This document shows positions 355 through 63,967 of a stretch of 64,000 nucleotides of DNA, piece after piece. The stretch is from contig OX387197.1 in assembly GCA_947561715.1 (NCBI GenBank), forward strand, positions 1,307,001 through 1,371,000, written 5' to 3'. The notes beneath the pieces are model-generated. The model made no database searches. It was not told the DNA's origin and saw nothing but the letters and a program-made list of their open reading frames with translations. This stretch comes from Ascidia mentula (taxonomy: Eukaryota > Chordata > Ascidiacea > Phlebobranchia > Ascidiidae). The first letter of the stretch is position 1; the number at the start of each line of letters is the position of its first letter. The translations under genes were made by a program, and so were the position numbers.

Positions 355-3300
355 ATGAAGCGAACACAAGAAGAAATAAACTTGCATCACCAGAAAGTGA
401 TGGATTTTTTAAACAAGTAAGTTTAATTCATGGAGATTTACTGAAGTTAAACTATTGATGTTTTAGTGACAGAAAAGAAACAAAACGATTTTGCAACAGA
501 ACACTTTGTTCCCAAGGAGAAAACTATTCAATACATGATGCTGTTGTTTGTTCTATGTCAGATTATTTTAATGCTTTACTTGGTGTTGAGGTAAGTGTGT
601 TTGTTTTGTAGAAATAATATGAAACCTGAGTGTTTGTCGTATAGTTGTCCCCTGTCCGTAAATACATTGCTGCAATCAAGCAAAAAATGTCATTTAGAAA
701 ACAATGACAACAACTCCTTACTTTTTAAAATTAATTTAGTTTGTTGACAAAACTCATAGGTCATGTGGTATAATTTCTCAACAATTGAGCAACAAACCAT
801 AATATTTTGTACCTGTCTTTTATGAACATACGTACCTAGAGTTGTTCATCCCCTTTAGTTTACACCAGGCCTCCATAACGCATGGCTCGATACCGACATC
901 CAGCTCATGTTTTGACACAATTGGCTCAGTTGCAACAGCTTAGTCTAGTGTTTGCATATCTAATAAGCATTTGTTTAAGTTGTTACAATATTAAGGTTTA
1001 AATTTTTAAGATGTTAAGGTGGTTTTTGTTATTACTCGACAATTACATTGGATTAACTTTTGCAACTATGCTAGAATGCAACTTACTAGATTGATTTATT
1101 TTTTGCTATGGCCCTTGTAATGTTTTTGTTTGAACGGGACTGATGTATGTTATTATATGTAAATTACATACCATATTCCTGCACCAGAAAGGTTGTGAAT
1201 TTTGTCAGTTCTTTAGACCGGATTGTGTGTGTTTGTTGTGATTGGTTAACTTTGTTTTCTTATAGATGCGCGAGAAATACTCAGATTTCATCAAGGTTGA
1301 CAATATTCCACCAAAAAGACTGGAAAGTGTATTGGATTATATTTACACTGGTGATATTGAAGTAACAGAGAAAAATGTGTTGGAAGTGTTGGAAGATGCT
1401 GATTATACACAGATGCAAGGTATGCAAGTTTTAATCTTTACTGATGTTAATGTGTTAAGAGTGATTATTTCAATATATATGTTCTACATGTGTATTTATT
1501 TTTTTGCAAACCATGACAATTTTGCATATTTTAGGTTAAAATTTTTGTGTTTGACTATTGTCACGTTGTTGACACCAGGGACAAAACAAATTATTTGTAA
1601 TCAATGGAGCAGTGAGCACAGATATCACTTCTGAATTAGGTGTGGCTGAATTTTGTTTTGTTGACAATTTCAGAGTTGAAGTCATTTTGTTGTCGAGTCA
1701 TCCTTAAAATGACTTCAACAGACAACTGTTTGAAGCTAAGAGCTTATGCTACTCGATACAATCTTACTGATGTGGAAAAGAAAACAAACCAAATGATTGT
1801 TGATAACATTGCAACAGTTGTACAACATGATGATTTCATGCAACTTGATGCTGGTGATATGTCTGCAATTATCAAACAGAGAAACAAAGGGGTAATTATG
1901 ATTAATTTGTATTTTCTGTTTGCATTGTGGAAGAAAATCGTCAAGACTTTTTATTTAAAAGTTAAGGTAAATTAAATGTTGACTATAAAAGGTTGGGTAA
2001 ACTCATCAACAGTTCCTCATCCACAGCCACCAGCTCTGAATGTTGTTTCTTTGTGTTCACACAAAACGAAGTGAATTCCAGCAATAACTGCAGTTAAAAC
2101 TTAACATGTATGTTGCATAACATTTACTGTTTACAAGAATTAGTGAACTGGTAACTTTTACATCATATTTTGCGACAGACATTTTTAGTAGGTTATGGTC
2201 CAGGGGTTCTTAACTGCATGTTTTTTTAACAAACTTACATCAAACCAATAATATCAACCTTTTTGTATTTGTTTTAAGTTGCTTTTGTGGTGATTAAACT
2301 TTTTACGTCACATTTTTACTTTCTATTTGTGTTTTCGGTTTTAATTTACAATTTGATGCAGTCAGATCATGTTAGTAACCTTTTTATGATGTATTTTAAC
2401 AGTTACTTAACTTGTTGTCACAAATTAGTTGTTGAATGCAGACAGAAGAAGCTGTATTTACTGGACTGGTTCGATGGGTTAATTTCAATCCTTCCCATCG
2501 AGAGGATTTGTTTGTGAATCTTTTCTCGCAACTTGATCTTTCATCTATTTCCACTCAGTCTCTTGCAACCACAATAAGAAATGAAGTAAATTGTTTTAGT
2601 TGATTCGCTTATAATTAGTTTATATACATTTAATTCTTTACAGCCTCTTGTAAGAGGTAACATGGATTGTGCCATTGCAGTCATGGATGCTTTTTCAATG
2701 AACTTTGAAAAACCTGGAACAAGTGGAAAAGCAACTTCTGTCAAAAAAGGTGTGATATTTTTTTATATATTGTCACATTATCCACCATATTTATACCACT
2801 GTTATGGACAACATGCTCCCCAGTAAGAAATAATTATTTCCCCCGACCACAGTGATTTTGTTGTGGATGTCTTGTGATGTCACAAACACCTACTATATTA
2901 TGTTCTCCTCATTTCACCGGTATAATGTTGAGATATCTGGTGTAAAGAGCCCAAATTTGTATATGTTTATAATATTCTATTCGAATAAGTTGCACTCCGA
3001 AACTTTTTGAAATCTCACTTTAGGAAACGATTCCAAAACTGTTTAATTGTCAATAAAAGTGCATTTTAAACTTGACCGACCTTATAATACCAGTTGGAGA
3101 ACTGCAAGGTGGGATTAAGAAAGGGATTGAATTCTACAACCACCCTTGTAGCATTTGTACTCCCCTAACTTTAAACCCTACTCAATTTCCCACTTAAGAT
3201 TTACTCGTGGCAAATAATATTGCAAACATGTAGTCAGAATCCAGGAACAGTCAACTACCAACAAGTTAGGGATACAATTCTGTGGGCTGAGATTAAACAA

Positions 3301-6058
3301 ATAAATCAAAACTGACCAATATAGAAAGATTTGCTTCACCAAAAAGCATTAAGAAATACTGGTGTCAAAGCAATTAAATACTTAAATGAAGCTTGTGTAA
3401 ATACTCTGCACAAATACTAACTCCATTCAAAAAGATTGATTAACAAAACAACAACTTAACTTTCATAAAAAAATATGTTACCACTGTTATTACCCCCAAA
3501 AAAATATTTTAAGCAAACAAAACCATAACAAGCAAATGTTTATGTTTCAGATTTGTCAGGATTTCTTCTCATTGGTGGCAATAAATCAAAACGAGATTGT
3601 GTGAAATGGAATGTGACCACAAAACAGCATGAACATTACCCAGTATGCACATTGCTTGCTGTCTTACAGTTTTGCTTTTTAACATACTTTCTCATAACTA
3701 TACATGCTTTTTGTGTGTGCAAGTAAATGTAAATTTTAACTAAAATTAGCAAGACTGCAAAAGTCCAGTAACAGCCAGGATTTATTGCAAAACTTGGACA
3801 CTAATATTTTTTTGTTCATTTGATTGTTCATGAAATAATAATGCAAACATGCCCTGGTATAGTGTAACATGCCAATGACTTAACAAAATATGTTCCATAG
3901 TATGTCATGTTTTTTTCTATTATTCGAGTTACTTGTTTTAAGATAGAGACTTTTCTTTTATTTTGTGAAACATTTTAATCACTTTGCCTTGATGCATTGT
4001 TTCAAAAATTATCAAAATTTGTTTAGAAAATGATCACAGACAGAGTGAACTCAACTTCAGCCAAATTTGGTGAAAATGTTTATGTAATGGGTGGAAATGG
4101 TCCAACACAAAGTTGTGAGATGTTGAATTTGGAAGAACGTAAAAACTGGGTAAAAATTGCTGATTTGTTGGAAGGTCGACGTTGTGCTGCATCGTCTTTT
4201 GTTGGAGGTTGGTGTGGTTATTTCTGAAATTGTTGATTTCTAAACCGGGGGCTGTTCTTTTTATCACTAGTGTGTCTTTGTGTGGTTTATGACTATCTTC
4301 TCATCTCTCAACCAACTCATTCTAGTTGCTCTCCATAAATTTTGTTAGTAATACCCCAAAGAAAATTTGTGTTTTTTTGGACTTGTAACAGTATTACTGA
4401 CAAGTTACCAATTGTTGAACAGAAAGTTGTCCAACTATGTTTTTGGAAACTGATAGTAAATATTTGGTGAATATTTAGATGTTTATCAACAATTATCACT
4501 TTTATGGACGACCTTGTATTCACTAATTACAAACAAATTTAGGTGACTTGTATCTCACGGGTGGTCTTGGAAACCAAGGAACATTCTCATCAACTTTGTG
4601 TTATTCTGTACAAGAAGAGAGATGGAGAAATATTTTCAACATGTTACAACCAAGATATGGGCATGGAATGTGTTCAATTGACAGTAAGAATGCATCTAAA
4701 TTCATTTTTGTATAGGATTAATCTCATAACTGGACCCAGTACCAAATAGTTGGCATGCATCTGAAACAATAACATAATTAACTGGAAACCATAAATTAAA
4801 GTAATCAGTAAATCCACTCTATTTACCCCAACAATATTCACTTTTGGACATGAAAATGTTTTGAAACGCCGGCCTCAAACTTACCAGAAATGCAGGAAAT
4901 ATTCCATCTATATTTTGTAGTTCTTTATTGCATGAATATCAACCATAATATTGATTAATTTCAATTAAAACCTTGATTTAAAGCTGATCGCTTATTTGTA
5001 CGTTAAGAAACGCAGAGCTTACCTCATTGCTTGTTACGTAGCACTACGGCATAATCGTAATATGACGTCACAATAAATATGAACACAAGCGATTTTTCTT
5101 CAGATGTTTTGTTTTCTGTGGGCGGAAGGGATGATGGCGGACAATTCTTACAATCATGTGAATTCCGCGATGTTCGTGTTGGAACCTCCACAAGAATCGC
5201 TTCTCTCAATGAAGCAAGAAGTGATTTAGCATGTGAAGAAATTAAAGGGAAGATCTATGCAATTGGTTAGTGATGAAAAGTTAAGCAATAAAATTAACAG
5301 TAAGTGGTATTTTATGTAAATTTTATAAAATACGAATTCATATTCGTCACCGGTAAATGTATCACGTGATAAATATAATGGAGTTTCCTGAAAAGAATCC
5401 TAAACATAAAAACTGGTAGATATAACTATAAAGTATTAACCTAAAAACAATAAAAAGTTTTACTTTAAATCTGACAGGAGGTTTTCGTGATCGTGGCTTC
5501 CTGCGAACAGTTGAAGAATACGAACCTAGAGTCAACAAATGGAAATATGTTTCTCCTCTCCTAAATACTCGTCACCGTCACTCTGCTTGTGTTATTGATG
5601 GGAGGATTTATGTTGTGGGTGGATGGAGGTAAGAATTACTATTATGACGTCACTATAGTCCACTGTTTCCCGTTTTATGTGAAAATGTAAATGTTGAGAA
5701 ACTGGGACAAGTGGGATATACGTTGTTATACTTGATTAACAACATTCATAAAATGTTTGTTATATTCAAACTTAAAACACTTTGTATTATACAAGGTTGT
5801 ATGTGTGGTTTGGTTTAGTGTTGAAGGAGTCTGCGGGTGTACGTTGGTTTGTTTTTGTTAACTTATAAAATTTACTTTTAGTGAAAAATGTTGTAGAAAA
5901 ACTTGCCTGTGTTTGTGGTGTGCCTGATTCATGAAACTATATCATGTTTGTTTTATAGAATGACATCAGTTGAAGTTTACGATCCAACCTCAGATGTCTG
6001 GACACATGCTTTTGATATTGACAAACCAGTTGATGAGGCGACTGTTGTTGCTGTTTAA
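355..6058 (+). CDS. BTB-BACK-Kelch protein, array copy 1 (12 exons, 544 aa)
   Basis: Probable Cullin-3 ubiquitin-ligase substrate adaptor. My exon model is 355-416, 467-590, 1266-1419, 1674-1891, 2442-2585, 2644-2749, 3551-3642, 4027-4207, 4543-4683, 5104-5265, 5478-5628 and 5959-6058; every junction is GT-AG, phases match, and the sum is 1635 bases with stop. BTB covers about residues 20-120 (HDAVVCSMSDYFNALL is the typical core), BACK about 130-240 (EEAVFTGLVRWVN), and six Kelch blades about 270-544, each with a Gly-Gly (LIGG, VMGG, LTGG, SVGG, IGG, VVGG). Family knowledge: BTB and BACK bind Cullin-3, Kelch binds the substrate. The start is the first ATG, in a context shared by all copies. 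AATAAA lies at 6122. Orthology to a named vertebrate KLHL is not clear. Confidence 0.9.
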
Positions 6059-7740: not shown

Positions 7741-9395
7741 AGATGCTCCCCGGTTCGTGGAGCGGAACGTCACACGAGGGAAAGGTTAAAACGCGCCTCC
7801 TGAACTTCCTCCGAAAATATTCGCAGTTTTTTATTCGGACAAAGAAGACGGTTTCTATACAAAATGCATCACATCAACAAATGTACTTTAGATGTACAAT
7901 CAATATAGGCTCACCAACTGTTTTCGGAACCGGCATGCAAACGAATAAATTGCTAGTTCAGTGTTACGCCTAAACAAAGATGCAATGTATAGTCACAAAT
8001 ACCCGCTACGACGTTACACACAATGCTTACCAATTGTTGTGACAACAAACCACAAACACCACTTGATTAAATGGCACGAACACTCTAAGAATAAACAAAG
8101 CAGTGTAAGTAACTTGTCTTGGCTCATTTACCCAAGGTACAACGAATGGCATCTTAGGCCATTGCGTTCAAATAGCAATCAAGGTTAAAGATAATACAGT
8201 TTATCCAATACGCATAAGCAACTCACCGATAATTAAGCTCTTTGCGACATAGAACCGTGCTCCACGAAAGTGAGACACAAAAAAGGACTTAACCACGTTT
8301 TCAGTCCAACAAAACTACCAGTTAATTGTTACGTCACAAACTACAATAGACTGCAACAATTATAGCAGTGAAAGGAAAAAAGGCACATAAATAGAAATCA
8401 GGCAATTGCTGGCAAATAAGATGTAACATACCCCCCCCACAATGTACGAATCCAAGTAGTACATGTCAACACAACAAACAAACATCGGACAGTAATTGCG
8501 AAAACAGTTCACTCGCAACTAATCACGCATCGCGTCGTCGCGGCACAATAAGCACAATTTTGCGATTGGGCGTCTTAACGCACCAGTGTGAGTCTTCACG
8601 ATCACCTGACGCACAACTCCTTTCCGATCAGGATGTTCCTCAACCACTCGACCCAGGAACCACTTGTTCCGGGGCTGGTTGTCATCTGCCACAAGAACCA
8701 CGTCGTTGACCATAAAATTCGAATGTCCACTTGCCCACTTCGATCTGGGCATGAGCGTAGGCAGGTACACGCGAGACCATCGCCTCCAAAACTGATCGGC
8801 CAGGTATTGTACCTGACGCCACCGGTTTTGATGGTAACAGTCCTTCCCCGTGAACAGTCCTGGTTACATTTTCGGCGCTGCACGTTGCAGCATTAAATGA
8901 TTGGGAGTAAGGGGCTCCTCATCCTTCGGATCGAACGTCACTGGGACCAAGGGGCGGGTGTTTAGGATTGCCTCGACCTCTACCATCAGAGTGCACAACC
9001 GCTCATCAGACAACGTCTGTTCCGAGAGCAGGGCGTTGAGAATTTCGCGCACAGAGCGTAACATGCGCTCCCATACCCCACCCTTGTGGCTGACAGTGGG
9101 GGGATTAAAACTCCATGCAATTTCGCGTTGTTGCAGATATTCGTGAATCTGCCGTTGGTTCCACTTCTTCAGTTCTTATTGCAGGATACGCTCGGCTCCG
9201 ACGAAATTCGTGCCGTTGTCACTGAAGATCTGGTTTGGACGTCCACGACGACCGATGAACCGTCGAAGGGCCCCAATAAAGGAGTCAGTCGACAATGAAT
9301 GGGCTATCTCGATATGTGCGTCCCTGGTGGAGAAACAAGTAAAGATACAACCTCTTTACCTCACTTCGCCCTTGCTTCACAAGAAAGGGTCCGAA
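7740..9395 (-). mobile_element. BEL/Pao LTR retrotransposon 3' fragment, unit 1 (fossil)
   Basis: The minus strand from about 9395 to 8521 resembles the integrase region of BEL/Pao elements plus the conserved C-terminal block that follows it. A poly-C run near 8431 on the + strand is the polypurine tract of the minus strand, and it is followed directly by sequence beginning TGTTACATC, as a 3' LTR should (about 7740-8428; left edge uncertain). No gag, protease or reverse transcriptase is present, so only the 3' end of an element was carried here. It is broken by several changes. It has the same position and orientation in units 1, 2 and 3, so it was inserted before those duplications and then copied with them. 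Confidence 0.75.
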
Positions 9396-10820: not shown

Positions 10821-10884
10821 ATTTAGACAATATTACGGCGTGCTATTCAAATTGCTGGGCCGACGTTTGAAAGACGCCTTTTTG

Positions 10885-14610: not shown

Positions 14611-17600
14611 ATGAAGCGAACACAAGAGGAAATAAACTTGCATCACCAGAAAGTGATGAATTTTTTGAACAAGTAAGTTTGATTTATGGAGGTTTACTGA
14701 AGTTAAACTATTGATATTTCAGTGACAGAAAAGAAACAAAACGATTTTGCAACAGAACACTTTGTTCCCAAGGAGAAAACTATTCAATACATGATGCTGT
14801 TGTTTGTTCGATGTCAGATTATTTTAATGCTTTACTTGGTGTTGAGGTAAGTGTGTTTGTTTTGTAGAAATAATATGAAACCTGAATGTTTGTCGTATAG
14901 TTGTCCCCTGTCCGTAAATACATTGTTGCAATCAAGCAAAAAATGTCATTTAGACAACAACAACAACAACAACTCTACTTTTTAAAATTAATTTAGTTTG
15001 GTGACAAAACTCATAGGTCATGTTGTATAATATCTCAATAATTGACCAACATACCATAATATTTCATACCTGTCTTTTATGAACATACGTACTCAGTGTT
15101 GTTCACCCCCTTTAGTTTACACCAGGCCTCCATACCACATGGCTCGATCCCGACATCCAGCTCATGTTTTGACACAATTGGCTCAGTTGCAACAGCTTAG
15201 TCTAGTGTTTGCATATCTGATAAGCATTTGTTTGAGTTGTTATGATATTTAAGGTTTAAATTTGTAAGATGTTAAGGTGGTTTTTGTTATTACTCGACAA
15301 TTACATTGGCTTAACTTTTGCAACTATTCTAGAATGCATCTTACTAGATTGATTTATTTTTTGCTATGGCCCTTGTAATGTTTCTATTTGAACAGGACTC
15401 ACGTATGTTATTATATGTTAATTACATACCATATTCCAAATGGTAAATTTGTCAGTTCTTTAGACCAGATTGTGTGTGTTTGTTGATTGGTTAACTTTGT
15501 TTTCTTATAGATGTGGGAGAAATACTCAGATTTTATCAAGGTTGACAATATTCCACCAAAAAGACTGGAAAGTGTATTGGATTATATTTACACTGGTGAT
15601 ATTGAAGTAACAGAGAAAAATGTGTTGGAAGTGTTGGAAGATGCTGATTATACACAGATGCAAGGTATACAAGTTTTAATCTTCACTGATGTTAATGTGT
15701 TAAGAATGAATATTTCAATATATATGTTCTACTTGTGTATCATTTTATTTGTCAACCACGATAATTTTGCATATTTTAGGTTAATATTTTTGTGTTTGAC
15801 TATTGTCACGTTGTTGACACCAGGGACAAAACAAATTATTTGTAATCAATGGAGAAGTGAGAACAGATATTACTTCTGAATTAGAGGCGGTTGAATTTTG
15901 TTTTATTCACACTTTCAGAATTGAAGTCATTTTGTTGTCGAGTCATCCTTAAAATGATTTCAACCGAAAACTGTTTGAAGCTAAGAGCTTATGCTACTCG
16001 ATACAATCTTACTGACGTGGAAAAGAAAACAAACCAAATGATTGTTGATAACATTGCAACAGTTGTACAATATGATGATTTCATGCAACTTGATGTTGGT
16101 GATATGTCTGCAATCATCAAACAGAAAAACAAAGGGGTATTTTATGATTCATTTTCTTTGTTTTTTTCCTGAATTTATAATTTATTTGTTTATCTACGCA
16201 AGTTGGCGGGTTTTAAAGTTGGGTCAGTTTCCCACCCACAGATTTTAGTTCTGGATGTTGTTTGTTCTTATTTAGTCACAAATGTAACTTTACAAATGTC
16301 AGTGAACTTTTCTGCATATCTGAGTTCATTTCATGACATGCAGTGATGTGATATTTGCAATAAACCTAGGTTATGATCTAGGGGTTTCTTATCTGCATGT
16401 TTTTCAACAACCTAATATCAAAACAATAATGCAAGTTTTTTTCTGAAACATATTTGTTTTAGGTAATTTTGGAAGTGATTTTTTTGTGACATTTTAAGTT
16501 TCTGTTCATGTTCTTAGGTTTAAATTTACAGTTTGGTGCAGACATATCATATTATTAAGCTTTTCATGGTAGCTTGCCTTTTTATAACATATCGTTTGTT
16601 GAATGTAGATGGAAGAAGCTGTTTTTACTGGAATGGTTCGATGGGTCAATTACAATCTTTCCCATCGAGAGGATTTGTTTGTGAATCTTTTCTCACAACT
16701 TGATCTTTCATCTATTTCCAAAGACTTTATAACAACTACAGTTAGAAATGAAGTAAATTGTTTAGAGTTAGTATAAATATAATTGGTTTAGAGGTTTTAT
16801 TCCTTTCAGCCTCTTGTGAGAAGTAACATGGATTGTGCCATTGCAGTCATGGATGCTTTATCAACAAACATTGAAAAGCCAGGAACAAGTGGAAAAGCAA
16901 CTTCTGTCCAAAAAGGTCTGATGTTAGGAATACTTTTCTGTAGGTTGAGATTAATTAAAGATCTTAAGCTAAATCTAAACTGGCCAATATAGAAAGATGT
17001 GCTTAATCAAAAATGTATTTAGAAATAATGTTGTCAAAGGCAGTGTCCCAATAAGTTTGTTAGTTCCATAAATGTAATTAAAAACTTAACTGAAGCTTGT
17101 GCAACAAACATATTAATGCTATTTAAAAAGATTAATTAACAAAGCAACAACTTCACTTGAATGGGAAATATGTTTCCATTGTTATCACCATAATTATTTA
17201 TTTTACACAATCAAAAACCATAACTAATGTTTATGTTGCAGATTTGTCAGGATTTCTTCTCATTGGTGGAGAAGATTCAAAACGAGATTGTGTGAAATGG
17301 AATGTTGCCACAAAACAACATGAACATTACCCAGTATGTACATTGCTTGCTGTCGTATTGTTTTGCTTATTTAACATATTTTCCCATAAATACACATGGT
17401 TTTTGTATGTTCAAGTAAATGTAAATTTGAACTAAAGTTACCAAGACAGCAAATGTCCATTAACATTCAGGATTTAATGCAAGAAAAATAATGCAACATG
17501 CCCTGGTTTAGTGTCAGTGCCATTGACTCAACAAAATATGTTACTAGTTTTTAGATAGAGACTTTCTATTATTTAGTGAAACATGTAAATCACTTTGCCT

Positions 17601-19628
17601 TGCTGTTTTGGTTTATTGTCATCAAATCTTGTTAAGAAAATGATCACAGACAGAATGAACTCAACTTCAGTTAAATTTGGTGAAAATGTTTATGTAATGG
17701 GTGGAGATGGTCCAACACAAAGTTGTGAGATGTTGAATTTGGAGGAACGTAAAAACTGGGTACAAATTGCTGATTTATCGGAAGGTCGAAGTTATGCTGC
17801 ATCTGCTGTTGTTGGAGGTTGGTGTGGTTATTTCTGAAATTGTTGATTACTAAACCAGGGGCGGTTCCTGGAATAAAGCATTGGGGAAGCCCCCCTCACA
17901 AATTGTCATGGCAATAAAAAGTAACACGGTGGAAGACAAAGGGTTTTGTTAATATTTATTTCCATCCATCACTAGTGCGTCTTTGTGTGGTTTATGACTA
18001 TCTTCTCATCTCTCAACCAACTCATTCTTACTCCTCGCCATAACTTTTGTTAGTAATACCACAGAGAAAAATTGTGGATTCTGCCATGACTACGTCAGCA
18101 AAATCTTTTTGTACTTTTAATATTGTTACTGACACTTTACTGACTTTTCTGGAAAACCTTGTTTTCACTAATTACAAACAAATTTAGATGACGTGTATCT
18201 CACGGGGGGTCTTGGAAACCAAGGAACATTCTCATCAACTTTGTGTTATTCTGTACAAGAAGACAGATGGAGATGTGGTTTCGACATGTTACAACCAAGA
18301 TATGGACATGGAATGTGTCCAATTGACAGTAATAATATGTCTGGGTTCATTTGTGTGAAGATTATTCTCATTACTGGAGACAGGTCTAAATAATTGGCAT
18401 GCATCTAAAACAACAACATAATTAACCAGAAACCATAAATTAAAGTAATCAGTAAATCCACGCTATTTACCCCAACAATATTCACTTTTGGACATGAAAA
18501 TATTGTGAAACGCCGGCCTTAAACTTGCCAGAAATGCAGGAAATATTCCATCTTTATTTTGTAGTTCTTTATGACATGAATTTTGAATTTAATATTGATT
18601 AATTTCAATTAAAACCTCGATTGAAAGCTGATCGCTTATTTGTACGTTAAACGCAGATCTTACCTCATTGCTTGTTACGTAACATTACAACATAATCGTA
18701 ATATGACGTCACAATAAATATTAACTCGACCGGTTTGAAAATTTCTTCAGATGTTTTGTTTTCTGTGGGCGGATGGAATGATGGCGGACAACCCTTACAA
18801 TCATGTGAATTCCGCGATGTTCGTGTTGGAACCTCCACAAGAATCGCTTCTCTCAATCAAGCAAGAGGTTATTTAGCATGTGAAGAAATTAAAGGGAAGA
18901 TCTATGCAATTGGTTAGTGGTGAAAAGTTATGCAATAAAATTAACAGGAAGTGGTTTTTGTGTAAATTTATAAAATACAAATTCATATTCGTCACCGGTA
19001 AATGTATCACGTGATAAATATAATGGAGTTTCCTGGAAAGAACCCTAAACATAAAAACTAGTAGATATAACCTAAAAACAATAAAAAGTTTTACTTTAAA
19101 TCTGACAGGAGGTGGTTATGGTCGTGGCTCCCTGCAAACAGTTAGAAAAACAGAAGAATACGAACCTAGAGTCAACAAATGGAAATATGTTTCTCCTCTC
19201 CTAAATTTTCGTTGCGATCACTCTGCTTGTGTTATTGATGGGAGGATTTATGTTGTGGGTGGAGGGTAAGAATTGCTATTATGACGTCACTATAGTCCAC
19301 TGTTTCCCGTTTTATGTGAAAATGTAAATGTTGAGAAACTGGGACAAGTGGGATATACGATGTTATACTTGATTAACAACATTCATATAATGTTTGTTAA
19401 ATTTAAACTTAAAACACTTTGCTTAAAATTTACTTTTAATGAAAAATGTTGTAGAAAAACTTACCTGTGTTTGTTGTGTGTCTGATTCACGAAACTGTAT
19501 CATGTTTGTTTTATAGAAACTTGGGTGGACTCACATCAGTTGAAGTTTACGATCCAACCTCAGATGATTGGACACTTGATTTTGAACTTGACAGACCAGT
19601 TTGTGGTGCCACTGTTGTTGCTGTTTAA
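14611..19628 (+). CDS. BTB-BACK-Kelch protein, array copy 2 (12 exons, 550 aa)
   Basis: Same architecture as copy 1. Exons: 14611-14672, 14723-14846, 15511-15664, 15919-16136, 16609-16752, 16810-16915, 17242-17333, 17637-17817, 18188-18328, 18751-18912, 19109-19265, 19517-19628; total 1653 bases with stop, all phases consistent. Exon 3 begins MWEKYS rather than MREKYS. Exon 11 carries a nine-base in-frame insertion (RKT) after LQTV, the largest length change in the array. Loops after Gly-Gly read ED, D, L, WND, GYGRG and GNLGG in blades 1-6. Intron 6 is much shorter than in copies 1, 3 and 5. AATAAA lies at 19692. Predicted role: Cullin-3 substrate adaptor with its own substrate preference (inference). 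Confidence 0.9.
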
Positions 19629-27055: not shown

Positions 27056-30000
27056 ATGAAGCGAACACAAGAAGAAATAAACTTGCATCACCAGAAAGTG
27101 ATGAATTTTTTAAACAAGTAAGTTTAATTTATGAAGATTTACTGAAGTTAAACTATTGATGTTTTAGTGACAGAAAAGAAACAAAACGATTTTGCAACAG
27201 AACACTTTGTTCCGATGGAGAAAACTATTCAATACATGATGCTGTTGTTTGTTCTATGTCAGATTATTTTAATGCTTTACTTGGTGTTGAGGTAAGTGTG
27301 TTTGTTTTGTAGAAATAATATGAAACCTGAGTGTTTGTCGTTTAGTTGTCCCCTGTCCGTAAATACATTGTTGCAATCAAGCAAAATATGTCATTTAGAC
27401 AACAACAACAACTCTTTTCTTTTTAAAATTAAGTTAGTTTGTTTACAAAACTCATAGGCCATGTGGTATAATATCTCAACAATTGAGCAACATACCATAA
27501 TATTTTATACCTGTCTTTTATGAACATTCGTACCCAGAGTTGTTCATCCCTTTAGTTTACACCAGGCCTCCATAACATATGGCTCCATCACGACATTCAG
27601 CTCTTGTTTTGACACAATTGGCTCAGTTGCAACAGCTTAGTCTAGTGTTTGCATATCTGATAAGCATTTGTTTGAGTTGTTACAATATTTAAGTTTAAAT
27701 TTGTAAGATGTTAAGGAGGTTTTTGTTATTACTCGACAATTACATTGGCTTAACTTTTGCAACTATTCTAGAATGCAACTTACTAGATTGATTTATTTTT
27801 TGCTATGGCCCTTGTAATGTTTCTATTTGAACAGGACTCGTGTATGTTATTGTATATAAATTACATACCATATTCCAAATGGTAAATTTGTCAGTTCTTT
27901 AGACCAGATTGTGTGTGTTTGTTGTGATTGGTTAATTTTGTTTTCTTATAGATGCGCGAGAAATACTCAGATTTTATCAAAGTTGACAATATTCCACCAA
28001 AAAGACTGGAAAGTGTATTGGATTATATTTACACTGGTGATATTGAAGTAACAGAGAAAAATGTGTTGGAAGTGTTGGAAGATGCTGATTATACACAGAT
28101 GGAAGGTATGCAAGTTTTAATCTTTACTAATGTTAATGTGTTAAGAGTGATTATTTCAATATATATGTTCTACATGTGTATTTATTTATTTGCAAACCAT
28201 GACAATTTTGCATATTTTAGGTTAAAATTTTTGTGTTTGACTATTGTCACGTTGTTGACACCAGGGACAAAACAAATTATTTGTAATCAATGGAGAAGTG
28301 AGCACAGATATCACTTCTGAATTGGGTGTGGCTGAATTTTGTTTTGTCTACACTTTCAGAGTTGAAGTCATTTTGTTGTCAAGTCATCCTTAAAATGACT
28401 TCAACCGATAACTGTTTGAAGCTAAGAGCTTATGCTACTCGATACAATCTTGCTGATGTGGAAAAGAAAACAAACCAAATGATTGTTGATAACATTGCAA
28501 CAGTTGTACAACATGATGATTTCATGCAACTTGATGTTGGTGATATGTCTGCAATCATCAAACAGAGAAACAAAGGGGTAATTATGATTAATTTGTATTT
28601 TCTGTTTGCATTGTGGAAGAAAATCGTCAAGACTTTTGATTTGAACGATAAGGTAAATTAAATGTCGTCTATAAAAGGTTGGGTAAACTCATCAACAGTT
28701 CCTCATCCACAACAACCAGCTCTCAATGTTGTTTGTTCGTGTTCACACAAAAAGAAATAAATTCCAGCAATAACTGCAGTTAAAACTTAACATGTATTTT
28801 GCATAACATATGCTGTTCACAAGAATTAGTGAACTGGTAACTTTTACATCATATTTTGCGACAGACATTTTTAGTAGGTTATGGTCCAGGGGTTCTTATC
28901 TGCATGTTTTTGTAACGACCTTACATCAAAACAATAATATCAACCTTTTTGTATTTGTTTAAAGTTGCTTTTGTGGTGATTAAACTTTTTATGTGACATT
29001 TTTACTTTCCATTTGTGTTTTCGGTTTTAATTTACAATTTGATGCAGTCAGATCATGTTAGTAACCTTTTTATGATATATTTTAACAGTTACTTAACTTG
29101 TTGTCACAAATTAGTTGTTGAATGCAGACGGAAGAAGCTGTTTTTACTGGAATGGTTCGATGGGTTAATTTCAATCCTTCCCATCGAGAGGATTTGTTTG
29201 TGAATCTTTTCTCACAACTTGATCTTTCATCTATTTCAACTAAGTCTCTTGCAACCACAATAAGAAATGAAGTAAATTGTTTTAGTTGATTCGCTTATAA
29301 TTAGTTTATATATTTAATTCTTTTCAGCCTCTAGTAAGAGGTAACATAGAATGCAGCAATGCAGTCATGGATGCTTTTTCAATGAACTTTGAAAAACCAG
29401 GAACAAGTGAAAAAGCAACTTCTGTCAAAACAGGTGTGATATTTTTTGTGTAATGTCACATTATCCACCATATTTATACCACTGTTATGGACAACATGCT
29501 CCCCAGTAAGAAATAATTATTTCCCCCGACCACAGTGATTTTGTTGTGGACGTCTTGTGACGTAACAAACACCTACTATATTATGTTCTCCTCATTTCAC
29601 CGGTATAATGTTGAGATATCTGGTGTAAAGAGCACAAATCTGTATGTGTTTATAATATTCTATTCGAATGAGTTGCACTCCGAAACTTTTTAAAATTATA
29701 CTTTAGGAAACGATTCCAACTGTTGAATTGTCAATAAAAGTGCATATTAAACTTGACCAACCTTATAATACCAGTTGGAGAACTGCAAGGTGGAGGCTTG
29801 AATGCTGCAACCACCCTTATAGCATTTGTGCTCCTGTAATTTTAAACCCTACTCAATTTCCCACTTAAGATTTACTCGTGGCAAATCATATTGCAAACAT
29901 GTGGTCAGAATCCAGGGACAGTCAACTACCAACAAGTTAGGGATACAATTCTGTGGGCTGAGATTAAACAAATAAATCAAAACTGACCAATATAGAAAGA

Positions 30001-39892: not shown

Positions 39893-39956
39893 ATTTAGAC
39901 AATATTACGGCGTGCAATGCAAATTGCTGGGCCGACGTTTGAAAGACGCCTTTTTG

Positions 39957-43207: not shown

Positions 43208-46200
43208 ATGAAGCGAACACAAGAGGAAATAAACTTGCATCACCAGAAAGTGATGAATTTTTTAAACAAGTAAGTTTAATTTATGGAGATTTACTGAAGT
43301 TAAACTATTGATGTTTTAGTGACAGAAAAGAAACAAAACGATTTTGCAACAGAACGCTTTGTTCCCAAGGAGAAAACTATTCAATCCATGATGCTGTTGT
43401 TTGTTCTATGTCAGATTATTTTAATGCTTTACTTGGTGTTGAGGCAAGTGTTTGTTATGTAGAAATATTATGAAACCTGAATGTTTGTCATTTAGTTGTC
43501 CCCTGTCTGTAAATGCTTTGTTGCAATCAAGCAAAAATTTAATTTAGACAACAACAACAACCCTTTACATTTTAAAATTAATTTAGTTTGTTGACAAAAC
43601 TCATAGGTCTTGTGGTATAATATCTCAACAATTGAGCAACAAACCATAATATTTTATACCTGTCTTTTATGAACATACGTACCTAGAGTTGTTCCCTTTA
43701 GTTTGCACCAGGCATCCATAACACATGGCTCAATACCGACAACCAGCTCATGTTTTGACACAATTGTCTCAGTTGCAACAGCGTAGTCTAGTGTTTGCAT
43801 ATCTGATAAGCATATGTTTAAGTTGTTGCAATATTAAGGTTCAAATTTTTAAGATGTTAAGGTGAGTTTTGTTATTACTCGACAATTACATTGGCTTAAC
43901 TTTTGTAACTATGCTAGAATGCAACTTACTAGATTGATTTATTTTTTGCTATGGCCCTTGTGATGTTTTTATTTGAACAGGACTGATGTATGTTATTATA
44001 TGTAAATTGCATACCATATTCCAAATGGTAAGGTTTTGTCAGTTCTTTAGTCCGGATTGTGTGTGTTTGTTGTGATTGGTTAACTTTGTTTTCTTATAGA
44101 TGCGCGAGAAATACTCAGATTTTATCAAGGTTGACAATATTCCACCAAAAAGACTGGAAAGTGTATTGGATTTTATTTACACTGGTGATATTGAAGTAAC
44201 AGAGAAAAATGTGTTAGAAGTGTTGGAAGATGCTGATTATACACAGATGGAAGGTATGCAAACGTTGCAAGTTTTAATCTTTACTGATGTTATTGTATTA
44301 AGAATGATTATTTTAATTATTACACTTTGTTGGAGGGATATTGATATATTTGTACTGTGTAAAATGTGGGACAAAAGAAATTATTTGTGATTAATGGAGA
44401 AGTGAGCACAGATATCACTTCTGAATTTTAGCCCAATTTTGTTTTATTCACACTTTCAGAGTTGAAGACATTTTGTTGTCGAATCATCCTTGAAATGATT
44501 TCAACCGACAACTGTTTGAAGCTAAGAGCTTATGCTACTCGATACAATCTTGCTGATGTGGAAAAGAAAACAAACCAAATGATTGTTGATAACATTGCAA
44601 CAGTTGTACAACATGATGATTTCATGCAACTTGATGTTGGTGATATGTCTGCAATCATCAAACAGAAAAACAAAGGGGTAATTGTGATTAATTTGTTTTT
44701 CTAATATATTTTATGATTAAAATTATTAAGACCAATTTTTTTCAAAATTTTTTTATTTCTATGTTTAAAGAAGCTTAAATAGTGATTTAAACTCTGTGAT
44801 GTTTCACCTTTTATTTCATGTTCTTGTTGTAAATTTAGTATTTGATGTAGTCACCGGTGACATTGATCACTTTGTCGTTTGTTTAAACTGTTACTTGTTA
44901 TTACATATTATTTGTTGAATGTAGATGGAAGAAGCTGTCTTTACTGGAATGGTTCGATGGGTCAATTTCAATCCTTCCCATCGAGAGGATTTGTTTGTGA
45001 ATCTTTTCTCACACCTTGATCTTTCATCTATTTTCACTCAGTTTCTTACAACTACAGTTAGAAATGAAGTAAAAAAAAGTTTATTATTTTTAGCCTTCTG
45101 TTAGTGACTTTTGATATTACTGTGTTTTTTTCAGCCTCTTATGAGGAATAATGTTGAATGCAGCAATGCAGTTTTGGATGCTTTGTCAATGAAATTTGAA
45201 AAACCAGGAACAAGTGGAAAAGCAAGTTCAGTTAAGAAAGGTGCAAGATTTGTTTATATAATGTCACATTCAAAGCAATTTGTTACATCTGCCATATTTA
45301 CACCACCCACATATCCTATAACTTTAACCTCCACTTAAATTTCCCACTTCACATTTACTCATGGCAAATAACATTGGAAATATGTGATCAGAATTCAGGG
45401 TCAGTCAACTACCAACAAGTTAGTGATACTATTCTGTGGGATGTGATTAAACAAAGATCTAAAAATAAAACTACACTGATTAGTACAGAAAGATGTGCTT
45501 CATCATAACTTACAAAATGTGTTAGTTTCGTACTCGTAGTTGTACTTAAAAACTTAACACATTGTTGTTTAACACAAATACAAACTCCAATGAAATAGGT
45601 TGATTTACAAAGCAACAACTTCACCTGAAGAGGGGAAATATGTTTCCATTGTTATCACCATAATTATTTATTTTTCACAAGCAAAAACCATAGCAAGCAA
45701 TGGTTATGTTGCAGATTTGTCAGGATTTATTTTTATTGGTGGAGATAATTCAACACGAGATTGTGTGAAATGGAATGTTACCACAAAACAACATGAACAT
45801 TACCCAGTATGTACATTGTTTGCTGTCATATGATTGTGTTTATTTAAGGTACTTTCCCATAAATATACATGCTTTTTGTGTGTGCAAGTAAATGTAAATT
45901 TTAACTAAAATTAGCAAGACAGCAAAAGTCATGTAACCATAGGCGCCTAATCCAGGGGGGCAGGGCGGCGGCGACTGACACTGGTTGTTGCAACGTCAGT
46001 CTCGCAGTATAATATGCCAACAGGTACTTATTGGTCGTGTCGTAGACCGATCTCGTGTATTCATCGTTACACCGCCCTTTTGGCTAATACACAGTTTTTC
46101 GATACTTGATGACGCCATAATAGCAAATTATGATGTCATAATATAGCCGCCCCCCTTGGAAAAAATGAAAACTAGGCGCCTATGCCAGTAACCTTGAGAA

Positions 46201-48598
46201 TTTAATGCAATATTTGGACACTGATAATTTTTTTTTAATTCAATTGCACAAGAAAATGTAGCAACATGAATCATGCCCTGGTTTAGTGTAACCTGTCAAT
46301 GACTTAACAAATATTCTCCAGAGTAGATCATGTTTTCTGTTATATGTTTTGAGGTAGAGACTTTCTTTTATTTAGAGAAACATGTAAATCACTTTGTCTT
46401 AATGTATAGTTTCATTGTCATCAAATTTTGTTAAGAAAATGATCACAGACAGAGTGAACTCAACTTCAGCCAAATTAGGTGAAAAAGTTTATGTAATGGG
46501 TGGAGAAGGTCCAACACAAAGTTGTGAGATGTTGAATTTGGAGGAAAGTAAAAACTGGGTAAAAATTGCTGATTTATCGGAAGGTCGAAGTTATGCTGCA
46601 TCTGCTGTTGTTGGAGGTTGGTGTGGTTATTTCTGAAATTGTTGATCACTAAACCAGGGGCGGTTCCTGGAATAAAGCATTGGGGAAGCCCCCCTCACAA
46701 ATTGTCTTAGCAATAAAAGTTACGCGGTGGCAGACAAAGTGTTTTGTTAATATTTATTTTTGTTTATCCCTAGTGTGTCTTTGTGTGGTTTATGACTATC
46801 TTCTCATCCCTCAACCAACTCATTCTTGTTGCTCTCCATAACTTTTGTTAGTAATACCCCAGAGAAAATTTTTGAATTCTGCCATGACTGCATTTGCGAA
46901 TTTTTTTGTACTTTTAACAGTATTACTGACACTTTACTGACAAGTTACCAATTCTTAAACAGAAAGTTGTTCAACTATGTTTTTGGAAACTTATAGTAAA
47001 TATTTAGTAAATATTTAGATGTTGATCAACAATTATAACTTTTATAGACAACCTTGTTTTCACTAATTGCAAACAAATTTAGATAACTTGTATCTCACGG
47101 GTGGTCTTGGAAACCAAGGAGCATTCTCATCAACTTTGTGTTATTCTGTACAAGAAGACAGATGGAGAAGTGGTTTCAACATGTTACAATCAAGATATGG
47201 GCATGGAATGTGTTCAATTGCCAGTAAGAATGCATCTAAATTCATTTTTGTATAGGATTAATCTCATTACTGGACCCAGCTCCAAATAGTTGGCATGCAT
47301 CTGCAACAACAACATAATTAACCGTAAACCATAAATTAAAGTAATCAGTACATCCACTCTATTTACCCCAACAATATTCACTTTTGGACGTAAAAATGTT
47401 GTAAAACGCCGACCTAAAACTTACCAGAAATACATGAAATATTCCATCTTTATTTTATAGTTCTTTATTGCATGAATATCAACCATAATATTGATTAATT
47501 TCAATTAAAACCTTGATTTAAAGGTGATCGCTTATTTGTACGTTAAGAAACGCAAAGCTTACCTCAATGATTGTTACGTAACATTACGACATAATCGTAA
47601 TATGACGTCACAATAAATATTAACACAAGCGATTTAAAAATTTCTTCAGATGTTTTGTTTTCTGTGGGCGGAAGTGCTGGTGGACAACTCTTACAATCAT
47701 GTGAATTCCACGATATTCGTGTTGGAACCTCCACAGGAATCGCTTCTCTCAATGAAGCAAGATGGGGTTTAGCATGTGAAGAAATTAAAGGGAATATCTA
47801 TGCAATTGGTTAGTGATGAAAAGTTAAGTAATAAAATTACCAGTGAGTGGTTTTTATGTGAATTTTATAAAATACAAATTCATATTCGTCACCGGTAAAT
47901 GTATCACGTGATAAATATAATGGAGTTTCCTGAAAAGGATCCTAAACATAAAAACTGGTAGATATAACTATAAAGTATTAACCTAAAAACAATAAAAAGT
48001 TTTACTTTAAATCTGACAGGAGGTTGGAATGGTCACTCCCTGCGAACAGTTGAAGAATACGAACCTAGAGTCAACAAATGGAAATATGTTTCTCCTCTCC
48101 TAAAACCTCGTTACCTTCACTCTGCTTGTGTTATTGATGGGAGGATTTATGTTGTGGGTGGATCGGGGTAAGAATTACTATTATGACGTCACTATAGTCC
48201 ACTGTTTCCCGTTTTATGTGAAAATGTAAATGTTGAGAAACTGGGACAAGTGGGATATACGATGTTATACTTGATTAACAACTTGCATAAAATGTTTGTT
48301 AAATTTAAAACACTTTGTATTATACAAGGTTGTATGTGTGGTTTGGTTTAGTGATGTAGGGGTCTGCGGGTGTACGTTGGTTTGGTTTTGTTAACTTATA
48401 ATTTTTACTTAAAATGTTGTAGAAAACTTGCCTTTGTTTGTTGTGTGTCTGATTCATGAAACTGTATCATGTTTGTTTCATAGGATGTTGGTTGGAGGAC
48501 TCACATCAGTTGAAGTTTACGAACCAACCTCAGATGTCTGGACACATGCTTTTGATCTTGACAAACCAGTTTTGGATGCGACTGTTGTTGCTGTTTAA
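43208..48598 (+). CDS. BTB-BACK-Kelch protein, array copy 4 (12 exons, 547 aa)
   Basis: Exons: 43208-43269, 43320-43443, 44100-44253, 44460-44677, 44925-45068, 45135-45240, 45715-45806, 46436-46616, 47083-47223, 47650-47808, 48020-48167, 48484-48598; 1644 bases with stop. Intron 2 starts with GC (GAG/GCAAGT), a GC-AG intron, where the other copies have GT. Introns 3, 4 and 6 are shorter or different in sequence, similar in class to copy 2. Intron 7 carries a 247-bp MITE. Loops after Gly-Gly: DN, E, L, SAGG, WNGHS and SGMLVGG in blades 1-6. AATAAA at 48650. The 3' flank is the most diverged in the array. Confidence 0.9.
45938..46184. mobile_element. MITE in KLHL copy 4 intron 7 (247 bp)
   Basis: Perfect 12-bp inverted ends CATAGGCGCCTA and TAGGCGCCTATG. 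Flanks CATGTAAC (45930-45937) and CCAGTAAC (46185-46192) are an 8-bp duplication with two changes; sister copies have an uninterrupted site (for example near 30435 and 63525). Duplication length suggests a hAT-like element. No coding capacity. Confidence 0.85.
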
Positions 48599-52841: not shown

Positions 52842-52964
52842 CTTTTCAGGTCAATTTTCAGGCCTGTAATAATCGACAAAAAGTTGTAGTTTAGTGTTTG
52901 CTATGTGTGACTTTGTTGGGCCTCATAAGCATGTTTAAATGTTACCAAATTTCTTTCGTTTCAG

Positions 52965-60400: not shown

Positions 60401-63400
60401 ATGAAGCGAACACAAGAGGAAATAAACTTGCATCACCAGAAAGTGATGAATTTTTTAAACAAGTAAGTTTAATTTTTGGAGATTTACTGAAGTTAAAATA
60501 TTGATGTTTCAGTGACAGAAAAGAAACAAAGCGATTTTGCAACAGAACACTTTGTTCCCAAGGAGAAAACTATTCAATACATGATGCTGTTGTTTGTTCT
60601 ATGTCAGATTATTTTAATGCTTTACTTGGTGTTGAGGTAAGTGTGTTTGTTTTGTAGAAATAATATGAAACCTTAGTGTTTGTCGTATAGTTGTCCCCTG
60701 TCCGTAAATACATTGTTGCAATCAAACAAAACATCAATTTAGACAACAACAACAACTCTTTACTTTTCAAAATTAATTTAGTTTGTTGACAAAACTCATG
60801 GGTCATGTGGTATAATATCTCAACAATTGAGGAACATACCATAATATATTATATCTGTCTTTTATGAACATACGTACCCAGAGTTGTTCATCCCTTTAGT
60901 TTACACCAGGCCTCCATACCACATGGCTCCATCACATCCAGCTCATGTTTTGACACAATTGGCTCAGTTGCAACAGCTTAGTCTAGTATTTGCATATCTG
61001 ATAAGCATTTGTTTGAGTTGTTACAATATTTAGGTTTAAATTTTTAAGATGTTAAGGTGGTTTTTGTTATTACTCGACAATTACATTGGCTTAACTTTTG
61101 TAACTATGCTAGAATGCAACTTACTAGATTGATTTATTTTTTGCTATGGCCCTTGTGATGTTTCTATTTGAACAGGACTGTTGTATGTTGCTATATGTAA
61201 ATTACATACATATTCCAAATGGTAAAGTTGTAAATTTTTGTCAGTTCTTTAGACCAGATTGTGTGTGTTTGTTGTGATTGGTTAACTTTGTTTTCTTATA
61301 GATGCGCGAGAAATACTCAGATTTCATCAAGGTTGACAATATTCCACCAAAAAGACTGGAAAGTGTATTGGATTATATTTACACTGGTGATATTGAAGTA
61401 ACAGAGAAAAATGTGTTGGAAGTGTTGGAAGATGCTGATTATACACAGATGCAAGGTATGCAAGTTTTAATCTTTACTGATGTTAATGTGTTAATAGTGA
61501 TTATTTCAATATATATATATGTTCTACATGTGTATTTATTTATTTGCAAACCATGACAATTTTGCTTATTTTAGGTTAAAATTTTTGTGTTTGACTATTG
61601 TCACGTTGACACCAGGGACAAAACAAATTATTTGTAATCAATGGAGCAGTGAGCACAGATATCACTTCTGGATTAGGTGTGGAATTTTGTTTTGTTGACA
61701 ATTTCAGAGTTAAAGTCATTTTGTTGTCGAGTCATCCTTAAAATGATTTCAACCGACAACTGTTTGAAGCTAAGAGCTTATGCTACTCGATACAATCTTG
61801 CTGATGTGGAAAAGAAAACAAACCAAATGATTGTTGATAACATTGCAACAGTTGTACAACATGATGATTTCATGCAACTTGATGTTGGTGATATGTCTGC
61901 AATCATCAAACAGAGAAACAAAGGGGTAATTATGATTAATTTGTATTTTCTGTTTGCATTGTGGAAGAAAATCGTCAAGACTTTTGATTTGAACGTTAAG
62001 GTAAATTAAATGTCGACTATAAAAGGTTGGGTAAACTCATCAACAGTTCCTCATCCACAACAACCAGCTCTCAATGTTGTTTGTTCGTGTTCACACAAAA
62101 AGAAGTAAATTCCAGCAATAACTGCAGTTAAAACTTAACATGTATTTTGCATAACATATACTGTTTACAAGAAATAGTGGTAACTTTAAAATCATATTTT
62201 GCGACAGACATTTTTAGTAGGTTATGGTCCAGGGGTTCTTTAACTGCATGTTTTTTTAACAAACTTACATCAAACCAATAATATCAACCTTTTTGTATTT
62301 GTTTTAAGTTGCTTTTGTGGTGATTAAACTTTTTATGTGGCATTTTTACTTTCTATTTGTGTTTTCGGTTTTAATTTACAATTTAATGCAGTCAGATCAT
62401 GTTAGTAACCTTTTTATGATATATTTTAACAGTTACTTAACTTGTTGTCACAAATTAGTTGTTGAATGTAGACGGAAGAAGCTGTTTTTACTGGAATGGT
62501 TCGATGGGTTAATTTCAATCCTTCCCTTCGAGAGGATTTGTTTGTGAATCTTTTCTCACAACTTGATCTTTCATCTATTTCCAATCAGTCTCTTGCAACC
62601 ACAATAAGAAATGAAGTAAATTGTTGTAGTTGATTCGCTTATAATTAGTTTAAATGTTTAATTCTTTTCAGCCCCTAGTAAGAGGTAACATAGAATGCAG
62701 CAATGCAGTCATGGATGCTTTATCAATGAACTTTGAAAAACCTGGCACAAGTGGAAAAGCAACTTCTGTCAAAAAAGGTGTGATATTTTTTTATATATTG
62801 TCACATTATCCACTATATTTATACCACTGTTATGGACAACATGCTCCCTAGTAAGAAATAATTATTTCCCCCTGACCACAGTGATTTTGTTGTGGTTGTC
62901 TTGTGATGTCACAAACACCTACTATATTATGTTCCCCTCATTTCACCGGTATAATGTTGAGATATCTGGTGTAAAGAGCGCAAATCTATATGTTTATAAT
63001 ATTCTATTCGAATAAGGTGCACTCCGAAACTTTTTGAAATCTCACTTTAGGAAACGATTCTAAAACTGTTGAATTGTCAATAAAAGTGCATATTAAACTT
63101 GACCGACCTTATAATACCAGACTGGTGTCAAAGTAATTAAATACTTAAATGAAGCTTGTGTAAATACTATACACAAATACTAACTCCATTCAAAAAGATT
63201 GATTAACAAAGCAACAACTTTACCCTCATAAAAAATATGTTACCACTGTTATTACCCCAAAAAAATATTTTAAGCAAACAAAACCATAACAAGCAAATGT
63301 TTATGTTGCAGATTTGTCAGGATTTCTTCTCATTGGTGGCCGTAATTCAAAACGAGATTGTGTGAAATGGAATGTTACCACAAAACAACATGAACATTAC

Positions 63401-63967
63401 CCAGTATGTACATTGCTTGCTGTCTTACAGTTTTGCTTTTTAACATACTTTCTCATAAATATACATGCTTTTTGTGTTTGCAAGTAAATGTAAATTTTAA
63501 CTAAAATTAGCAAGACAGCAAAAGTCCAGTAACAGCCAGGATTTGTTGCAAAACTTGGACACTAATAATTTTTTGTTGATTTGATTGTACATGAAATAAT
63601 AATGCAAACATGCCCTGGTTTAGTGTAACATGCCAATGACTTAACAAAATATGTTCCATAGTATGTCATGTTTTTTTCTATTATTCGAGTTACTTGTTTT
63701 AAGATAGAGACTTTTCTTTTATTTTGTGAAACATTTTAATCACTTTGCCTTGATGCATTGTTTTAAAATTATCAAAATTTATTTAGAAAATGATCACAGA
63801 CAGAGTGAACTCAACTTCAGCCAAATTTGGTGAAAATGTTTATGTAATGGGTGGAAATGGTCCAACACAAAGTTGTGAGATGTTGAATTTGGAGGAACGT
63901 AAAAACTGGGTAAAAATTGCTGATTTATCGGAAGGTCGACGTTGTGCTGCATCGTCTTTTGTTGGAG
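60401..63967 (+). CDS. BTB-BACK-Kelch protein, array copy 5 (exons 1-8, runs off window)
   Basis: Exons seen: 60401-60462, 60513-60636, 61302-61455, 61708-61925, 62472-62615, 62672-62777, 63312-63403, 63787-63967. All are open and phase-consistent, so BTB, BACK and the first two Kelch blades are complete; blades 3-6 lie beyond the window. Blade loops read RN and N after Gly-Gly, and blade 2 has GRRC like copy 1 instead of GRSY. Introns 4 and 6 are of the long class shared with copies 1 and 3. Confidence 0.88.

Follow-up and report, generated by a model that had tools for sequence, protein, structure and literature searches.

The window analyzed here, by which we mean the whole 64-kb stretch of Ascidia mentula DNA at positions 1307001–1371000 of contig OX387197.1 (C1), carries on its plus strand five head-to-tail copies of one BTB-BACK-Kelch gene of 12 exons each. 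Exons E1–E6 encode the BTB domain, the BACK domain and a linker, and exons K1–K6 encode the Kelch propeller, with approximately one blade per exon. For copy 1 the reading frames and splice sites were read by eye, and the other copies were modelled by alignment transfer (Table 1). Splice sites of copies 1–4 are GT-AG throughout, with the sole exception of one donor in copy 4. The interval 355–63967 given by the initial annotation proved to be exact, running from the E1 start of copy 1 to the K2 end of copy 5; the full gene of the latter, encoding 540 amino acids (aa), is locus L022, with E1 at C1:1367401.

The predicted product of copy 1 gave matches over the Pfam cut-off to BTB (5.6e-19), BACK (1.1e-16) and Kelch_1 (6.3e-39), arranged as BTB at residues 23–124, BACK at 132–230 and Kelch matches to residue 535, which is the domain order of the KLHL family. 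A Gly-Gly pair (GG) is present in blades 1 to 6 in 30/30, 30/30, 25/25, 27/27, 26/27 and 27/27 genes, respectively, as expected of a six-bladed propeller; the single exception, Gly-Ser in blade 5 of L036, was treated as a loop deletion. In BTB proteins the phi-X-E motif contacts Cul3 (PMC6484134). A candidate for this motif was located in copy 1 by alignment to a Kelch protein that the same genome encodes in a single exon, to which copy 1 is 24% identical, and the Met and Glu of this position are retained in all 24 in-frame E3 exons.

Table 1. Coordinates in the window of the gene copies, of the exons of copy 1 and of its motif and rim codons (GG+1, residue after Gly-Gly; DA pair, two residues after the conserved Arg or Val of a D-A loop; R+2, second residue of the pair; posterior, posterior probability under the M8 site model, called if >0.95)
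Feature	Position	Strand	Description	M8 result
Copy 1	355..6058	+	12 exons, 544 aa; frame open across all splices	
Copy 1 exons E1–E6	355-416, 467-590, 1266-1419, 1674-1891, 2442-2585, 2644-2749	+		
Copy 1 exons K1–K6	3551-3642, 4027-4207, 4543-4683, 5104-5265, 5478-5628, 5959-6058	+	stop in K6	
Copy 2	14611..19628	+	12 exons as copy 1, open, 550 aa	
Copy 3	27056..32823	+	12 exons as copy 1, open, 543 aa	
Copy 4	43208..48598	+	12 exons as copy 1, open, 547 aa; GC donor at E2 (43444-43445)	
Copy 5	60401..63967	+	E1–K2 in window; K2 end at 63967, close to window end	
Candidate phi-X-E motif, copy 1	1266..1274	+	Met-Arg-Glu, aligned to Met-Val-Glu of the single-exon Kelch protein	
Blade 1 GG+1	3580..3582	+	Asn	posterior 0.99
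Blade 2 GG+1	4096..4098	+	Asn	posterior 1.00
Blade 3 GG+1	4566..4568	+	Leu	posterior 1.00
Blade 4 GG+1	5127..5129	+	Arg; opens length-variable in-frame B-C loop	posterior 1.00
Blade 5 GG+1	5483..5485	+	Phe; opens length-variable in-frame B-C loop	posterior 1.00
Blade 6 GG+1	5624..5626	+	Trp; directly before the K5/K6 junction	posterior 1.00
DA pair after TDR	4045..4050	+	Val-Asn; least variable of the six	neither called
DA pair after EGR	4180..4185	+	Arg-Cys	R+2 alone called, posterior 0.99
DA pair after QPR	4656..4661	+	Tyr-Gly; second least variable	neither called
DA pair after NEAR	5220..5225	+	Ser-Asp	both posterior 1.00
DA pair after NTR	5573..5578	+	His-Arg	both posterior 1.00
C-terminal DA pair after DKPV	6032..6037	+	Asp-Glu	both posterior 1.00

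For the comparative analyses, copies 1–4 were combined with 28 family stretches from beyond the window, which gave 31 genes, not all of them complete, under 32 row names (L040, with E1–E3, and L041, from E4 onward, are one gene). Duplicate rows, i.e. the window row W5, equal to L022, and E4–E6 of L040, equal to L041, were removed before the main runs on replacement and silent differences and on site models; column-level runs on indel pattern and per-codon diversity preceded this removal, and the main figures were repeated without duplicates. The number of rows was 24–25 for BTB, 31 for BACK and E6, 25–30 for Kelch columns and 27 for full K4–K6, the genes without complete K4–K6 being L017, L031, L035 and L038. 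Left out for their length were K3 of L018 and L035, E3 of L028 and K1 of L031, and for unmappable ends K3 of L017, L041 and L042, together with K6 of L035, which has no identifiable acceptor. L036 has no second-Gly column and is absent from the K4 tree (26 tips).

Two variable rings and probable selection on the propeller rim

The initial annotation had listed the residues directly following GG (position GG+1) in the window copies as N/E/S/D/R, N/D/D/E/N, L/L/D/L, R/W/Q/S, F/G/G/W and W/G/T/S for blades 1 to 6, and on re-reading all of these were correct. Among the 31 paralogs the mean amino acid entropy is 0.00 bits at both Gly and rises to 2.43 bits at GG+1. A second ring, absent from that annotation, is formed by the two residues (R+1 and R+2, together R+1,2) that follow a conserved Arg, replaced by Val in the last blade, in each loop between strands D and A (DA loop); counted from the conserved residue, the mean entropies are 0.00, 1.71, 1.82 and, at R+3, 0.25 bits. 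The top nine of 521 entropy columns belong exclusively to GG+1 (four) or R+1,2 (five), and so do 11 of the 12 most variable of the 521 codon columns; the twelfth lies in the BACK-Kelch linker in E6 and coincides with a high level of silent change (proportion of silent differences, pS, 0.29). When Kelch columns were drawn at random 100,000 times, the mean entropy of GG+1 was never reached. Changes are thus concentrated at the rim codons and not evenly distributed, and the diversity claimed for GG+1 is seen in all six blades, yet not solely there, as the loops between strands B and C (BC loops) contain in-frame indels in blades 4–6 and the DA pairs vary too, in most blades to an equal extent.

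The DA pairs are unequal: variability is highest in blades 4–6 and much lower in the pairs that follow TDR (the first) and QPR (the third). The BC loops of blades 4–6 vary in length, with the frame kept in all 27 genes with K4–K6, and these 27 genes carry 27 different loop sets, the distinct BC loops numbering 27, 26 and 26 for blades 4, 5 and 6. In blade 5 the changes start immediately after the intron-exon boundary, itself nearly identical in the 27 genes. The K6 exon is 100, 112 or 115 nt long across genes; the difference lies at the exon start, directly after the blade-6 GG, so that the loop differs in length. At the 18 rim positions we found 13% Tyr, 12% Asn, 12% Gly, 9% Arg, 9% Asp and 8% Trp, with 0.2% Lys, 0.4% Ala and nearly no Pro, which is the composition of a binding surface. 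The accompanying claim that introns are nearly unchanged holds in copies 1–4 for those between K4 and K5 and between K5 and K6 (94–97% identity), but not for those between E4 and E5 and between E5 and E6 (73–98%), the lowest value, 73%, being that between E5 and E6.

In KEAP1, GG ends strand B and the substrate pocket is described as built from the D-A and B-C strand loops (PMC4668279). It follows that GG+1 opens the BC loop, and sequence alignment puts R+1,2 in the DA loop. In the KEAP1 sequence, Y334 and R380 stand at GG+1 and G364, N414, R415, S508, S555 and S602 at R+1 or R+2, i.e. eight of the 11 contacts in the following list. Residues given as hydrogen-bonding NRF2 are Y334, G364, R380, N382, N414, R415, R483, S508, Q530, S555 and S602 (PMC8161161). 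The KEAP1 numbering used in the initial annotation can be taken as sound. Our mapping was made by aligning the sequence with structurally characterised propellers, together with these papers. In HMMER alignments to the designed SAKe propellers, which derive from KEAP1, R+1 matches the Ser of RSG, and GG+1 matches the residue that follows GG. The alignment would thus place GG+1 in a pocket-forming BC loop, on the substrate face to which it had first been assigned. At the same time, the pocket residues of KEAP1, which an orthologue of KEAP1 would be expected to retain, are not kept in the family: the equivalent positions differ from copy to copy.

To compare replacement with silent change, we used the ratio of the proportions of replacement and silent differences (pN/pS; Nei-Gojobori, all pairs, gene bootstrap), for which no tree is needed. 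Only GG+1 was taken into the codon tests from the BC loops of blades 4–6, whose later residues do not align, and the other BC-loop codons that could be aligned were counted separately. The ratio was 0.16 (0.11–0.23) in BTB, 0.42 in BACK, 0.54 in E6 and 0.72 (0.61–0.85) in the Kelch scaffold, compared with 2.25 (1.68–3.59) at GG+1, 3.73 (2.69–6.15) at R+1,2 and 2.13 (1.22–7.60) in the other alignable BC-loop codons. Selection is therefore seen at the predicted substrate-binding rim and not in the BTB and BACK domains, as in adaptor arrays of the MATH-BTB and F-box kind, apart from a weak residual signal of the M8 model in BTB-BACK. The K4 and K5 codons for R+2 show a diversity of 0.50–0.65 at positions 1 and 2 and of zero at position 3 in 27 genes.

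Site models were run with one fixed tree per exon (scale factor free), built from the flanking intron and the non-rim codons. In the Kelch part, M2a was favored over M1a by a twofold log-likelihood difference (2ΔlnL) of 593.9, and M8 over M7, the comparison suggested in the initial annotation, by 625.4; the replacement-to-silent rate ratio (omega) was about 16 for 7.4% of codons. Eighteen Kelch codons had a posterior >0.95, comprising 6/6 at GG+1, 7/12 at R+1,2 and 5/236 elsewhere, so that 13 of 18 rim codons were called vs. 5 of 236 others (Fisher 3e-14). By both approaches replacement exceeds silent change at GG+1, as had been predicted.

The family in the genome and probable exchange between its copies

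A search of the 195.8-Mb assembly with a BTB-BACK query gave at least 71 close E4 exon places (at least 135 bits, hand count) and 13 more diverged ones; this count is a lower bound, as 150 of 603 candidates were scored. Thirty-three of the close places lie on the plus strand of C1 at 1.19–1.785 Mb, in the array to which the window belongs, and 19 on the minus strand of C1 at 0.657–0.966 Mb, while the remaining ones are found at 26.83–27.06 Mb (13), on contig C52 (three), at 23.08–23.10 Mb (two) and at 18.86 Mb (one). The E4 arrays thus show tandem amplification in this one genome searched. A search with the K4 exon gave 118 matches, of which 117 are stop-free and 109, counted by hand, reach at least 73% identity. 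Of 24 genes followed in the window or in a 10-kb stretch (copies 1–4 and L015–L034), 20 are intact, and L031 was modelled to K1 only, with K2 and K3 present further on.

A second, clearly different form of K3 (blade 3), with QGGG or QGGD in place of the LGNQG type, has an intact frame in L041 and L042 and a broken one in L018. We considered whether the K3 break of L018 was an alignment artefact due to this second form, and the frame break persisted. Further Kelch clusters, partly of other subfamilies, were noted on C1 at 1.0–1.09, 1.93–2.83, 3.0, 5.2 and 6.4–7.8 Mb and on C52 at 17.44–17.47 Mb.

The exon neighborhoods are only loosely correlated across genes, with Spearman coefficients of 0.81 for K1–K2, 0.29 for K4–K6 and 0.08 for E3–K6, a pattern that an exchange of short tracts among copies would produce. 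The start of K5 in L042 is identical, over the 48 nt compared, to that of L023 from the other array, yet by similarity of flanks L023 comes only 15th of 28 for L042; the closest flank to that of L042 belongs to L041, whose K5 loop differs. Mean flank identity beside the variable patches is 91% for K4 and 93% for K5, and nearest-flank pairs at 1–3% divergence still differ in their loops.

The spacers between the window copies contain retroelement remnants on the minus strand (8519–8863, 22062–22940 and 37583–38496), with DUF5641 over the Pfam cut-off in three spacers and an integrase core (rve) below the cut-off in two; perhaps these were amplified together with the gene copies. A minisatellite-like open stretch of NVANVAN repeats lies at 12997–13431. 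The 16-base spliced leader of Ciona, whose presence points to an ascidian genome, has 2157 exact copies in the genome (1091 and 1066 by strand; backward control, 0), including tandem units of about 720 bp at C1 15.24–15.30 Mb, each with the leader, and copies inside the Kelch arrays. With one mismatch the 16-mer occurs in the E6–K1 intron at 2974 (copy 1) and 63001 (copy 5) of the window, and no splice donor follows it at 2974.

Interpretation of the rim diversity

Based on the observed gene structure, the location of the variation, the replacement excess and the conservation of BTB and the phi-X-E position, we consider it very likely that these genes encode a repertoire of Cul3 adaptors with a target-binding face under diversifying selection. 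From the domain content we infer the coupling to Cul3 and the nature of the targets; the capture of targets and the share of conversion are inferences as well. The proposal is that a lineage-specific ascidian BTB-BACK-Kelch family multiplied in tandem while its conserved BTB/BACK part, judged by its domains, probably served dimerisation and Cullin-3 binding, and that positive selection diversified the rim of the six-bladed propeller, i.e. the residues that open the BC loops plus a pair in every DA loop. Each copy would then capture a target of its own, to be ubiquitylated. Point changes and in-frame indels in the loops would generate new rims, and short gene-conversion tracts would carry these between copies. 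A rim may comprise up to 18 alignable residues plus the length-variable loops on a constant propeller scaffold. The selecting targets would be foreign or fast-evolving, with pathogen proteins the most likely. Selection on binding had already been proposed for GG+1; our results support that proposal and add the DA-loop half of the signal, which it had missed.

Several results weigh against such an adaptor repertoire. In window copies 1–4 alone, pN/pS is 1.52 at GG+1, 2.45 at R+1,2 and 0.92 in the scaffold; with a GG+1 ratio of 1.52 the case needs the wider family, and the window copies by themselves are suggestive rather than decisive. Silent diversity is high at R+2 of K3 and at GG+1 of blade 6 (pS 0.50 each), five of the 12 R+1,2 codons were not called, and the R+1,2 class was picked after viewing the alignment together with the KEAP1 contacts. 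Five other Kelch codons, with few states each, were called as well, and BTB-BACK gave a weak signal of its own (M7 vs. M8 2ΔlnL 12.0, p 0.002, omega 2.5, five codons >0.95). M2a and M8 assume a single tree, which gene conversion violates; the likelihood test may be inflated as a result, whereas the counts are not affected. As conversion can yield both the BTB-BACK residual and the five other codons, the likelihood ratio is not to be taken at face value. Finally, three of the 24 genes are broken, by an insertion in K3 (L017) or a frame break in K3 (L018) or E3 (L028), and L035, a partial stretch, has frame breaks, indicating that some copies are not maintained.

If the loop residues simply drifted in redundant copies under relaxed constraint, one would expect what is in part seen, namely variation at surface loop positions, a weakly constrained Kelch scaffold (0.72) and some broken copies. 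Yet drift gives a ratio of at most about 1, and the rim ratios (2.25 and 3.73), whose bootstrap intervals both exceed 1, adjoin conserved neighbors such as R+3 (entropy 0.25) and an invariant third position in two codons highly diverse at the first two, which makes free drift very improbable. A local mutational mechanism acting without selection (hypermutation, slippage or template-directed diversification) would account for changes in short patches beside the well-conserved flanks of K4 and K5, for the small set of codons used in the loops (e.g., GGT, CGT, GAT and TGG) and for the two rim codons with high silent diversity. The third position of the K4 and K5 R+2 codons, however, lies inside the patch and is invariant in 27 genes, the frame is kept in every gene with K4–K6, and a residue set in which Tyr, Asn, Arg, Asp and Trp abound while Lys, Ala and Pro are nearly absent is not expected from random mutation. 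Because of the third-position pattern and the residue set, we regard a purely mutational cause as highly unlikely.

Exchange between copies raises another explanation, in which the copies are old and diverged, conversion has homogenised their scaffold, and the loops are the unconverted remnant, with selection merely keeping old differences. The loose correlation of exons (0.08 and 0.29 vs. 0.81) and the K5 loop that L042 shares with L023 and not with L041, its nearest by flank, are in line with it. But conversion alone would not respect the GG and Arg boundaries so precisely in all six blades, and loops differ even where flanks diverge by only 1–3%; we judge this explanation unlikely, and gene conversion is best seen as a component of the mechanism, not as a substitute for selection. 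A different question is what the rims bind. Reproductive or allorecognition partners, selfish elements or fast-evolving endogenous substrates, rather than pathogens, are a possible though somewhat less probable set of targets. Ascidians have polymorphic self/non-self systems, and plant self-incompatibility employs arrays of F-box adaptors; on the other hand, the known self-sterility factors of ascidians are extracellular, and the present data favor neither such targets nor an immune role.

Diversifying adaptors with a proposed immune role are known from the MATH-BTB and F-box genes of Caenorhabditis elegans (Thomas 2006, as described in PMC4334554), where, as in the ascidian array, strong positive selection is described in the substrate-binding and not in the cullin-binding domains. 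Unlike these nematode genes, the ascidian family is based on a six-bladed Kelch propeller, belongs to a chordate host and has selected codons that recur at an equivalent place in each blade and so form two rings on a single face. With KEAP1 and the KLHL proteins it shares the BTB-BACK-Kelch order, the phi-X-E position and, as in KEAP1, a predicted pocket of BC and DA loops, but whereas KEAP1 is a conserved NRF2 adaptor, the ascidian family has many copies with changing rims, and its genes differ from those of KEAP1 and KLHL in being split into 12 exons with about one blade each. In primate TRIM ubiquitin ligases selection is located in the SPRY loops, and their domains are unrelated to the ascidian ones. 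Primate TRIM genes are similar in being young and multiplying, and are described as linked to antiviral defence (PMC3228819). The resemblance extends to tandem expansions of adaptor genes in plants. Plant Kelch-F-box and S-locus F-box proteins, unlike the ascidian family, are Cul1-type plant adaptors. A Kelch-F-box family is described in potato (PMC9063267).

Among the papers listed, judged by title and opening of the abstract and with subscription papers outside the scope, we found no tunicate or ascidian Kelch expansion of this kind, and further searches brought up other families only, which is weak evidence of novelty. What distinguishes it from the known adaptor arrays is the receptor fold, the chordate host and the regular two-ring placement on a propeller. 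More tentatively, we suggest that the family may amount to about a hundred germline cytosolic degradation receptors that are antibody-like in having one scaffold and a hypervariable ring of contact residues, with Tyr, Trp, Asn, Asp and Arg prominent, on six blades spread over six Kelch exons and reshuffled by short gene conversion between tandem arrays, each receptor marking a different foreign intracellular protein for Cullin-3 destruction. As each selected residue has been assigned to its codon, targets could be searched for directly by expressing copies that carry different rims. If the adaptor repertoire proposed here is real, it would provide a clean natural data set on how a Kelch pocket chooses its substrate, and an invertebrate chordate would possess intracellular recognition resembling an antibody repertoire, made from ubiquitin-ligase adaptors.

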